From a virus: 47,979 nt of DNA. This document shows positions 1-4,687 of this stretch, in pieces. Within the stretch, counting starts at the first letter, position 1, and each line of letters opens with the position of its first letter. The position numbers and the translations under genes are program-made. The notes beneath the pieces are model-generated. The model was not told the DNA's origin. It made no database searches and was given only the letters and a program-made list of their open reading frames with translations. Location: positions 1 through 47,979 of the IMG/VR virus record IMGVR_UViG_3300010354_000141; one strand, written 5' to 3'.

Positions 1-564
1 ATACGCATTGCCACTTATGGCAACAGCATGAGCTTTGACAGTAAATGCCCGCATTGCGGCGAATCAAACACACACGAAGTTGATCTTGGAAGTACTTTGT
101 CTAAATTGGAGACACCCGACTATGGTCAGATACTTAATTACAAAGATCTAAAAATTAAACTCAAACCGCAACATTACTTTAAAGCCAATCAAACTAATAT
201 GATGGAGTTTGAGGAACAAAAGTTAATTACTTTGATTAACAGCAGTGACCTAGATGCAGATGCTAAAGCTCAACAGATCACTGCCGGCGTAGAAAAGATG
301 CTTAAATTAGGAATTCAAAGTTGTGCACACAGCACAGAGTACGTTGAATTAGCCGACGGTACCCGTGTTACTGACAGCGATTTTATTGACGAGTTTTATC
401 AAAATTCCGAAAGCTCAGTAATTAAATTACTACGCGAAAAAGTTGCTGAATTTGTTGAAGTTGCCAAACCCAAAGGATTAACTTTAATTTGTCAAGGCTG
501 TGCTAGTAGCTATCCTGTCGACTTAACCTTTGATTACTCAAATTTTTTCGGCAGCGGCTTTTAA
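1..564 (+). CDS. 26: gp26/gp51-type baseplate hub or tail-assembly protein, 5' partial
   Basis: The reading frame is open from base 1, so this is the C-terminal 187 residues of a longer protein; the first ATG (28) is internal. It has a CPHC motif near the visible N terminus and a CQGC motif near the end, a likely zinc-binding pair. The order and residue pattern match the T4 gp26/gp51 family (T4 baseplate protein family, PF12322) as I know it from cyanophage-like genomes. In T4 these proteins act in building the central hub and are not typical structural parts. The stop comes five codons after an A AAT TTT heptamer at 540-546, where a -1 shift would lead into the next frame. Family call from recognition, not alignment. 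Confidence 0.75.
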   Translation: MRIATYGNSMSFDSKCPHCGESNTHEVDLGSTLSKLETPDYGQILNYKDLKIKLKPQHYFKANQTNMMEFEEQKLITLINSSDLDADAKAQQITAGVEKMLKLGIQSCAHSTEYVELADGTRVTDSDFIDEFYQNSESSVIKLLREKVAEFVEVAKPKGLTLICQGCASSYPVDLTFDYSNFFGSGF

Positions 565-782
565 CCTTAAACACTGACGCAGAGGTCATAGCCTTCCTTG
601 AAGGGCTAGATCGAGAGGTAAAAGCCATTAAAGATGAACTACTGCGTATGTGTTGGTATATGCGTGGTGGTATCACTTACGGAGAGATATTATACACCAC
701 GGTCAAAGAACGTGAGATAATTGGTGATATTATTAAAAGTAACTTAGAAATCACTAAGGAATCACGTATGCCATTCTTTTAA
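534..782 (+). CDS. Overlapping -1-frame extension of gp26 (conserved small hub/chaperone-like ORF)
   Basis: This frame is open from 534 (after TGA at 531-533) to TAA at 780-782. It encodes a conserved-looking sequence with a CWYMRGGITYGE core and a RMPFF end, which I recognise from small proteins following gp26 in cyanophage-like genomes. There is no ATG, GTG or TTG until the internal ATG in the middle of the CWYMRGG motif, so ordinary initiation would destroy the conserved part. The frame is -1 relative to gp26 and overlaps its last codons, including the slippery heptamer A AAT TTT. The simplest reading is that it is made as a gp26-extension fusion, adding 78 residues, like the G/GT tail chaperones of other phages. 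A rare start codon is the alternative. Confidence 0.7.
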   Translation, partial: LLKFFRQRLLTLNTDAEVIAFLEGLDREVKAIKDELLRMCWYMRGGITYGEILYTTVKEREIIGDIIKSNLEITKESRMPFF

Positions 783-1867: not shown

Positions 1868-3671
1868 AATCTTTACTATTTGCAACGGCCAACGATGAAA
1901 GATCTTCTTGTAGCTCGTCGCCTTCGTATCTGGTATAACCGTTTTCTTTGACTACTTTTAGAATATTATCTACACGGCCTACCAGTTCATCTCTATGACT
2001 AATCAAGAAAATACTTTTCTTAGCATTACGAGATGTATGTTTAAGCACTGATAATACATTCTCTACACCGTAGGCGTCGAGGCCGTTGTCCAACAATTCG
2101 TCAATTAAGAACAAATTAATCTTGTTGTACAAACTTTCCCAGATATCTCTAAACGAAAGATTTAGTGCAATAATCACTCGAGTTCTTTCGCCACGGCTTA
2201 GATTGTCAAAGTCTAAATCTCTACCAAGCTCAGTTATACTTACCGATAAGTCGTTCAAAAAGGCCACTTGATGCGGTAATCCAATTTTTTCCAGATAATA
2301 ACTAAGTCTGGTGTTTAGATAACTTAAATTCTGATCAATAATCTTTTTACGAATAAAACTGTCTTTGTTGGTCAACAACTTTAACAAAAATTCTTCGTGC
2401 TCTTTGATGTTAGTCAGGCGATTAATTTCGTCATAGCTAATTTCTTCAAGAGCTGTTTTAGTCATGTCTTCGATCTGTTCAGCATAAGGATCAACTTCGG
2501 CTAGTTTGGACTGCAAAGAATTATGCAAGTTAGCTAAAGTTGCACGATGTTCTACTGCATCGCTTTCTTTGTCGTAGAATACCTGTGGACATGTGCCTAG
2601 TTCGCCGAGATCTTGTAATTGTTGATCTAGTTCTGCACGTTGTTTTGCTAGCTCGACAGATTGATTTTGTGTGTCAGCCAAGTTCTTTTTGGCTGCGGTT
2701 AACAATTTTTCTTGTTTATCGTTGTGAAACGCTTGTCCACAACTATGACAAGTATGATTTTCCAAAGCTGTAATTTCTTTGGCAAACTGCTCAACTTCCT
2801 TTTGATTCCTGCGTTGATCTAATTCGCATTGTCTAATCAACCGATTAACTTCGTTGATTGCTTTTTGTTTGGTGTTGTACACATCAAGTGCACGGTGCGC
2901 AGCGATTTCTGCTTCAATGTCAATTTGATTTAATTGATCGTAGGCCAAACTTAGATTATCACATTCTTCCTTGTGCTTGTTAATCCATAAGGTTTGTCTT
3001 CGTTTAAGAGCTGCAATTTGTTCTTCAATGCGTTTATTGGCATCAATGGCAGCCTTAATACGAAATTCTTCCTGCTGTATGCTATCTTTACTGGCTCGTA
3101 CACGTTCTTTAAGTGATTCGGCCTTTTCGCTGAGTAAAGTAATACCCAATAATTGTTCAATGATTTCTCGTTGTTCGTTGGCCTTAAGGCTTAAAAAAGG
3201 TTCGGTATAAGTGTTAAGAGCCACAATATGCTTGAACATGTCGTGGCTCATACCAGCTATTTTTGTAATTTCTGCTTGAGTTTCTCTGCTGTCGCCTTGG
3301 CTTTCATCTTCGACTTGCTGTTCAACGGAACCAACAAAAAACTTCATAATGTTAGGCTTGCGACCGCGTTCAATTCTGTAATCTATGCCATCCTTTTCGA
3401 AATCAATGGTTACTAACATATTTTTACCGTTAGTACGATTGATTAAGTTGTCTTTCTTGATATTGGTCAGTGCTTGACCATACATGCCGTAACTGATAAT
3501 ATTCAGCAGTGCACTTTTACCCGTACCATTACGAGCACCCGAATCGTCGCCGCCCAGGTCGAGATTTTCACCGAGTATTAAGGTGAGATCTGAGCGATCT
3601 AGATTTACACTTTGCGTTACATTACCAATGGATAAGAAATTTTTAGCAGTTACTGATTTGATACGAATCAT
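1866..3671 (-). CDS. 46: gp46 recombination endonuclease subunit (Rad50/SbcC-like ATPase)
   Basis: A 601-residue ABC-class ATPase. Walker A is GARNGTGKS (residues 45-53), the hinge zinc hook CHSC is at 308-311 in the middle of two coiled-coil arms, the ABC signature LSRGE is at 491-495 and Walker B LFLIDELLD is at 520-528. This is the layout of Rad50/SbcC and T4 gp46. With gp47 it resects DNA ends to give 3' single strands for UvsX-driven recombination and replication. The start ATG overlaps the TAA of gp47 by one base (TAATG), so the two are likely translationally coupled. The length is close to T4 gp46 (560 residues). Confidence 0.96.
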   Translation of the reverse strand: MIRIKSVTAKNFLSIGNVTQSVNLDRSDLTLILGENLDLGGDDSGARNGTGKSALLNIISYGMYGQALTNIKKDNLINRTNGKNMLVTIDFEKDGIDYRIERGRKPNIMKFFVGSVEQQVEDESQGDSRETQAEITKIAGMSHDMFKHIVALNTYTEPFLSLKANEQREIIEQLLGITLLSEKAESLKERVRASKDSIQQEEFRIKAAIDANKRIEEQIAALKRRQTLWINKHKEECDNLSLAYDQLNQIDIEAEIAAHRALDVYNTKQKAINEVNRLIRQCELDQRRNQKEVEQFAKEITALENHTCHSCGQAFHNDKQEKLLTAAKKNLADTQNQSVELAKQRAELDQQLQDLGELGTCPQVFYDKESDAVEHRATLANLHNSLQSKLAEVDPYAEQIEDMTKTALEEISYDEINRLTNIKEHEEFLLKLLTNKDSFIRKKIIDQNLSYLNTRLSYYLEKIGLPHQVAFLNDLSVSITELGRDLDFDNLSRGERTRVIIALNLSFRDIWESLYNKINLFLIDELLDNGLDAYGVENVLSVLKHTSRNAKKSIFLISHRDELVGRVDNILKVVKENGYTRYEGDELQEDLSSLAVANSKD

Positions 3672-4687
3672 TATAAGTTTTGATAAATTTCTAACAGCAG
3701 TCGATTATTATAGTGCTCGCTACTGATTGCAGTCAACTGACCCGACACGATTTGATCAACACTTTGAAAAGCAATGTTGCCTTGCGCAACCAAATTTTCA
3801 AATTCGGTATTGTGTTGGGGAATCAGCTTGATTTCTCTTAGTCCGTGTGAAGCCATAAATGTTTCTTTGATAAAACCTGCTTCTTCGTAACTGATGTCAA
3901 TGTCTAAGTCAATGCGAGCATGCATGCCAGGTTTGAGCAGTTCGTCGGGTTTCTCTAACACAGCACTGAGCATATAAGTGCGATATCTAGGCTGATCCGG
4001 CCAAGTATGATACACAGGTTCTTTACCCCATTCGAGTATCATTAAGCCGCGCTCGTCGTCGCCAGCATCGGCATAATTGTGCGGAAAGCAGTTACCGATG
4101 TATGTAATATTTTTTTTGGTTTGTCGTTTGTGAAAATGTCCTGTGAATACGTGATCAAAGTTAACAAAGTCTTCGCGACGTATTTCGCCGTGGTCGGGCA
4201 TTTCCACCATGGCATTCATCATGTAACCGGGCAGTTCAAAATGCCCAAACATGTACTTGCCTTTTAACTTAGCAACCTTTTTATGGTCGTCGCCCACAAG
4301 CCAAGGGGCAATAACCACATTACCACTGCTAAACCAATCGTTAACGATTTGGACTCGTCCGAGATGTCTTGCCCAATCCACGCTTTGTATATCGCGTTTG
4401 TCACGGTAATACAAATCGTGGTTGCCAGGAATGAAATAAACAACATCAAAATTGTCATTGAGGTACTCCAGAGCTCTGAGACTGTAATTTAAGGTTACAA
4501 TATTTATTGAAGCTCTATTGTTGTGCCAATCGCCCAAAAACAACGCGGTTTCGCATCCTTGTTGCCGGGCCAGATCAGTGGCCCAGCGTACAAAGTTCAA
4601 ACAGTCTTCGTTGTGTTGTTGGCTGTTGGATTTAAGACCAAAGTGTATATCAGTGAACACCGCGGCTTTTTTAAACAGATTGCTCAT
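3671..4687 (-). CDS. 47: gp47 recombination endonuclease subunit (Mre11/SbcD-like)
   Basis: A calcineurin-like phosphoesterase of 338 residues. The metal ligands are visible: FTDIHFG (D13, H15), LGDWHN (D53), GNHD (88-91), FGHFELPG and TGHFHKR. It is the nuclease of the gp46/47 complex. The codon just before the ATG at 4687 is TTG, so the frame could start one residue earlier. No strong Shine-Dalgarno is seen. A weak TTGACT/TAAACT-like pair with a 19-bp spacer lies in the 37-bp gap behind gp55, so it may have its own promoter or be read through from gp55. Confidence 0.95.
   Translation of the reverse strand: MSNLFKKAAVFTDIHFGLKSNSQQHNEDCLNFVRWATDLARQQGCETALFLGDWHNNRASINIVTLNYSLRALEYLNDNFDVVYFIPGNHDLYYRDKRDIQSVDWARHLGRVQIVNDWFSSGNVVIAPWLVGDDHKKVAKLKGKYMFGHFELPGYMMNAMVEMPDHGEIRREDFVNFDHVFTGHFHKRQTKKNITYIGNCFPHNYADAGDDERGLMILEWGKEPVYHTWPDQPRYRTYMLSAVLEKPDELLKPGMHARIDLDIDISYEEAGFIKETFMASHGLREIKLIPQHNTEFENLVAQGNIAFQSVDQIVSGQLTAISSEHYNNRLLLEIYQNL

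Follow-up and report, generated by a model that had tools for sequence, protein, structure and literature searches.

A probable programmed -1 frameshift at T TTT TTC in a gp26-like phage gene, with the same signal recurring across most of the T4 superfamily

The left end of a 47,979-nucleotide viral sequence (IMG/VR record IMGVR_UViG_3300010354_000141; the whole of this stretch is called the window below) raises the question of how a conserved reading frame that overlaps the end of a gp26-like gene is translated. A preliminary description had proposed that a programmed -1 frameshift joins the gp26-like ORF to this downstream ORF. The proposal is strongly supported by a conserved heptamer, purifying selection on the -1 ORF, and a covarying stem at canonical spacing, and on these comparisons of sequence such a frameshift almost certainly operates here. 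The gp26-like gene is cut by the left edge of the record, so its 5′ end lies outside it; 18 IMG/VR relatives carry full genes of about 280 codons. The encoded protein matched phrog_150 (baseplate hub) with an E-value of 2.3e-6 and PF12322 with 1.7e-4, the latter under the curated cut-off because the window copy is truncated, and full-length relatives exceed that cut-off. The -1 frame is open from 534 to 779, across the heptamer as first described, and encodes LLKFFRQRLLTL...CWYMRGGITYGE...PFF before its stop at 780-782. An open -1 frame of at least 71 codons beyond the stop was also present in 7 of the 44 long ORFs of the window, so the open frame alone is insufficient, and its length by itself was dropped as evidence of frameshifting. 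The features of the junction are collected in Table 1.

Table 1. Position of the features at the gp26-like gene junction in the window
Feature	Position	Strand	Remarks
gp26-like gene, 3′ part, 0 frame (PF12322 / phrog_150)	1..564	+	short product ends FFGSGF*
Slippery heptamer T TTT TTC (0-frame codons AAT TTT TTC, 541-549)	543..549	+	invariant in relatives
-1 tail, 77 codons after the shift, RQRLLTL...MRGGITY...PFF	549..779	+	stop 780-782; distant counterpart of the gp51 C-terminus
Spacer from heptamer to stem, 6 nt	550..555	+	
Stem, 5′ arm GGCTTTTA	556..563	+	alifold consensus, pair counts, synonymous redraws
0-frame stop TAA, end of short product	562..564	+	12 nt 3′ of heptamer T TTT TTC
Stem, 3′ arm TAAAAGCC	619..626	+	same basis as 5′ arm

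The junction was compared in a set of 31 genes, comprising the window, 18 IMG/VR relatives with a readable junction (one further contig, L018, stops short of it), and twelve cultured-phage regions read from 46 matching records. T TTT TTC stood in the 0 frame in 31/31 of these window-type genes, 3 to 33 nt 5′ of the 0-frame stop. A profile search added 80 relatives, of which 79/79 readable loci had it in frame, although about five contigs of this wider set overlap with the 31 genes (L147, L173, L187, L221, and L223). It also occurred one codon 5′ of the stop in 80/80 cyanophage-type IMG/VR loci. The element thus found has the 0-frame pattern X XXY YYZ that is expected of programmed -1 frameshifting. 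The slip site originally suggested, A AAT TTT at 540-546, is present in the gp26 frame five codons before the TAA, but it is kept in just 13 of the 31 genes and was ruled out in favor of T TTT TTC, which overlaps it and does not vary. In all 31 genes the preceding codon ends in T, the first Phe codon is TTT, and the second is TTC, whereas codons nearby vary synonymously: the Phe five codons 5′ of the heptamer is TTT in 22 and TTC in 7, Asp is GAT in 19 and GAC in 11, and Tyr is TAC in 11 and TAT in 8. Across the whole window, Phe is encoded by TTT 536 times and by TTC 165 times. The chance of the codon choice in the heptamer is about 1e-17 when 18 lineages less than 70% identical are counted as independent, a figure that is rough because shared ancestry remains among them.

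A conserved -1 tail of about 60-79 residues was found in nearly all window-type, wider-set, and cyanophage-type genes, the exceptions in the wider set being a tail with an early stop (L166) and one locus that reaches the contig end. Differences in the tail among relatives fall on codon positions 1, 2, and 3 at 0.36, 0.21, and 0.56, respectively, which is the pattern of a coding frame. The conserved -1 product starts at the heptamer itself (FFRxRLL), well 5′ of the CWYMRGG motif. In seven relatives (L009, Munch, L129, L148, L149, L189, and L226) the -1 frame is closed by a stop directly 5′ of the heptamer, and the second frame therefore opens at the heptamer only.

RNAalifold on 14 window-clade sequences yielded a single helix, GGCUUUUA with UAAAAGCC, starting 6 nt 3′ of the heptamer, with 95.5-95.8% of cells paired and three doubly changed pairs. 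Its covariation score was 0.221 against 0.118 +/- 0.019 for shuffled alignments, which ignore relatedness, and sliding the partner by one base lowered pairing to 52-69%. A stem at the equal position was found in Atu_ph07 (GGCTCTTTGT/ACAAAGAGCC) and Phosso (GGCTCTTGTC/GGCAAGAGCC), and the score with both added was 0.269. When 81 sequences were redrawn synonymously with the -1 protein held fixed, the observed stem score was 22.9 against a mean of 11.3 (Z of about 33, again ignoring relatedness), and the stem was individually significant (p <= 0.05) in 85% of them. Taken singly, the stem of the window is marginal (p of about 0.05). Folding of the single sequence just 3′ of the window heptamer gave no significance (z 0.10) because the 3′ arm sits farther off, at 619-626, and it was the alignment that revealed the stem. 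Stems are weak in L009, L152, and the Mimasvirus group. One window-type subclade (L155, L157, L158, L169, L171, L179, L192, and L210) has a nearer 3′ arm, AGCTCTTAAC/GTTAAGAGCT, with a span of 46-48 as opposed to 68-71, and the stem there seems to have arisen anew at a different site, its spacer unchanged. Cyanophage-type loci carry a Shine-Dalgarno (SD)-like GGAGGG, GAGGG, GAAGGG, or GGAAGG 8-9 nt 5′ of the heptamer (80/80), and most of those sampled have an 11-12 bp hairpin after a spacer of 4-5 nt. An upstream SD-like stimulator is also known from E. coli dnaX. Both the window clade, with its stem, and the cyanophages, with SD-like element and hairpin, thus possess a stimulatory element at the distance proper to frameshifting.

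Under the proposed mechanism, most ribosomes on the gp26-like gene would terminate at 562-564, yielding the short protein; some would slip back one base at T TTT TTC (543-549), with the stem 6 nt downstream. Both tRNA-Phe would re-pair from TTT TTC to TTT TTT, and -1 reading would continue to 780-782. The resulting long protein would consist of the short-form sequence followed by a helical C-terminal domain of 77 residues. The site, the stem, coding selection in the -1 frame, the lack of usable starts, and the deep conservation are all computational results, from which the slippage itself and its ratio are surmised. The short and long forms are likely, we infer, to be counterparts of T4 gp26 and gp51 and to work, as gpG and gpGT do in lambda, as a pair of chaperones in tail (hub or tape-measure) assembly. 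If the lambda model carries over, the tape measure or hub protein may be coated by the short form, and tube or hub subunits may be recruited by the long one. The T4, 44RR, and EC-F2 type of Straboviridae would make the pair from two paralogous genes instead. The explanation as a whole, with slippage at T TTT TTC plus stem, short and long forms as gp26 and gp51 counterparts, and a chaperone pair, is held with high confidence.

The likeness to tail-assembly chaperones drawn in the preliminary description is favored, since what sets T4 gp51 apart from gp26 is a C-terminal extension to which the -1 tail corresponds. The rival account that weighs most, although it is judged unlikely, accepts the frameshift and takes the long form to be part of the hub structure, present in the virion as a minor subunit with an extra domain, rather than an assembly chaperone. 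Many annotations call T4 gp26 a subunit of the baseplate hub, and part of the genetic evidence also locates it there (PMC3004832). Against this, gp26 and gp51 are both listed as hub assembly chaperones, and gp51 is required yet absent from the particle (Leiman et al., PMC3004832). The virion table of phage CBB includes CBB_251 (29 peptides) and does not list CBB_249 or CBB_250, which argues weakly in the same direction. The gene order tail tube - gp26 - tail, with the tail-tube gene directly upstream, occurs in P-SSM2, KVP40, and phiM12, the last also with a tape-measure-like gene downstream, and this order supports the chaperone role in cyanophages, KVP40, and phiM12. No recognized tail tube or tape-measure gene adjoins the gp26-like gene in the window clade or in Rak2-like jumbo phages. 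Next to it in the window clade lie DNA genes and a divergent structural protein of the virion (a weak match to phrog_14121), and gene order cannot serve as an argument there. AlphaFold models of gp51- and gp26-type proteins (pLDDT 81 and 86) had no PDB fold match at E <= 0.001 and gave no link to known tail chaperones, and a PDB sequence search had no match.

A frameshift would be superfluous if the downstream ORF were a separate gene ("gp51" or hypothetical), reached by termination-reinitiation or from its own start. This is how databases annotate it, and many cyanophages and several jumbo phages do have an ATG 3-7 codons past the heptamer, often touching the upstream stop, with TAATG-like overlaps in the Ackermannviridae-type D531 and 207E48.1. 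The possibility is nonetheless very slight. The first ATG, GTG, or TTG of the window's -1 frame is the ATG at 648, codon 35 of the tail, just before CWYMRGG. The conserved part begins at the heptamer, and this ATG falls inside the conserved tail. PA5oct and Desulfovibrio phage 7757 have no ATG, GTG, or TTG anywhere in the -1 ORF, and in L093 none comes before codon 28. ATG codons for the second frame, which had been named as evidence that would speak against the proposal, are present in part of the cyanophages. These phages nevertheless retain the heptamer, the signal, and the FFR codons 5′ of the ATG, conserved in the -1 frame, and close relatives have no such ATG. From the SD-like element it is 8-9 nt to the heptamer and about 25-30 nt to the ATG, distances that fit slippage and not initiation, and T4 gp51 shows the in-frame fusion as a natural product. 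From the aligned frames, the -1 ORF is under purifying selection and has no usable start, a combination that marks a frameshifted second ORF. The comparison of the junction in relatives that had been proposed at the outset thus returned both a conserved heptamer and some -1 ORFs without any start. The groups phrog_634 and phrog_18291 and the annotated "gp51" or hypothetical ORFs of P-SSM2, KVP40, phiM12, 121Q, and CBB appear to be truncated -1 tails with arbitrary starts rather than independent genes.

RNA polymerase slippage on the T run, giving mRNA of mixed frame, has in its favor the homopolymer of six T (seven in HTVC008M, Cr30, and phiM12), although six is short for transcriptional slippage. 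The run sits in codon phase as X XXY YYZ, with C as the next base in nearly all genes, RHph_I1_9 has T TTT TTG, and the covarying stem at 5-8 nt spacing or the SD-like element is a ribosomal signal, which together leave this mechanism hardly any probability. A metagenomic contig in which two ORFs overlap at a homopolymer could suggest a sequencing error, or a pseudogene in decay whose frame was split by mutation. This is refuted: independent contigs numbering well over 150 and the genomes of more than 20 cultured phages share the layout, and selection acts on both frames.

The preferred reading, ribosomal -1 frameshifting, was found to extend further than the preliminary description had supposed, and the candidate signal recurs across most of the T4 superfamily. 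A single PF12322 gene was present in each of 12/12 complete jumbo-phage genomes and in KVP40, S-PM2, P-SSM2, HTVC008M, phiM12, Cr30, and phiW-14, and two were present in T4, 44RR, and EC-F2. In five single-gene phages the gp51-type end of phrog_150 was matched in the -1 frame, overlapping the gene end. The junction reads T TTT TTC in P-SSM2, S-PM2, KVP40, phiW-14, and Desulfovibrio phage 7757, T TTT TTT in HTVC008M, Cr30, and phiM12, and T TTT TTG in Rhizobium phage RHph_I1_9. As a negative control, X XXY YYZ was absent from the last 20 codons of nine complete gp26 genes of T4-type IMG/VR loci. Three Ackermannviridae-type loci, Vibrio D531 (L228), Vibrio 207E48.1 (L229), and Aeromonas phiA8-29 (L230), carry a gp51-type -1 tail with a CTT TTC or CTT TTT junction; a canonical heptamer is absent from the gp26-like gene end in these two Ackermannviridae and the related Vibrio phage D531. 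A TAATG-type overlap is present in D531 and 207E48.1, which may use reinitiation, and phiA8-29 has no start codon nearby; a different slip site or reinitiation is possible for the three. A 318-kb contig (L017) holds tandem gp26-like genes at 1642-2708 and 2722-3791, each with AAT TTT TTC and its own -1 tail, which by its sequence is a duplicated frameshift cassette. In a T4-type IMG/VR contig (L142:2501-3246) the gp51 frame is interrupted about 120 codons in, while the homology goes on, probably through sequencing error or inactivation.

T4 gp26 (208 aa) consists of the PF12322 domain alone, and T4 gp51 (249 aa) of the domain plus about 48 residues, so that the two share a domain and only gp51 has a C-terminal extension matching the -1 tail. 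Cyanophage -1 tails aligned to gp51 C-termini with a probability of 97% and an E-value of 9e-11 (hhalign). Window-type tails aligned weakly (probability 57%, P 1e-4) in the same register, Y..(I/L)..M.P.ER, and in the AlphaFold models the gp51 extension is helical. The T4 pair differs in that each protein has a gene of its own, the two genes diverge in orientation, and a slippery heptamer is absent near the gene end; T4-type gp26 retains FF, often as TTC TTT. An unrooted tree placed Straboviridae gp26 and gp51 together on one side of a 98/96 branch, which fits duplication within that lineage. In T4, gene duplication thus appears to have taken the place of the frameshift, with frameshift to duplication as the presumed direction of change. 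The wider proposal is favored with some reserve: the T TTT TTN frameshift in the gp26 gene would be the ancestral and prevailing way of making a gpG/gpGT-like chaperone pair in the T4 superfamily (cyanophages, pelagiphage, rhizobial and Rak2-like jumbo phages, and KVP40), and T4 genes 26 and 51 would be a derived duplication. Cyanophage and vibriophage gp51 was reported to be short, missing the first ~200 residues (Sullivan et al., PMC3037559). It was described there as truncated, and a frameshift was not proposed. This "short gp51" of cyanophages and KVP40 (phrog_634) appears to be the -1 tail itself, and it would look truncated because the frameshift supplies the missing ~200 residues from gp26.

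Frameshifted tail chaperones are near-universal in long-tailed phages, and G-T frameshifting has been called conserved in them "except T4" (Atkins et al., PMC5009743). No earlier description of a gp26/gp51 frameshift was found in the open-access literature, the scope on which novelty is judged. If the present reading is right, the T4 superfamily, very abundant marine phages included, has the same device, and T4 is a case of gene duplication replacing recoding. Such a duplication, if true, would explain both T4 as the textbook exception and the lack of an assigned function for gp51. A G/GT-type pair made from two paralogous genes without a frameshift has a precedent, in a protein family different from PF12322. 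The closest known systems are lambda G/GT and, alongside it, P2 E/E′, which has the slippery site T TTT TTG. In lambda, likewise, -1 slippage close to the 3′ end of the gene extends a small share of the copies of a tail assembly protein by a C-terminal domain, and a tail-tube gene lies upstream as in cyanophages, KVP40, and phiM12. Lambda G/GT differs in having no detectable sequence relation to the PF12322 system, and unlike lambda G the 0-frame protein here, a PF12322 domain, measures about 230-290 aa and carries two Cys-pair motifs resembling zinc ribbons.
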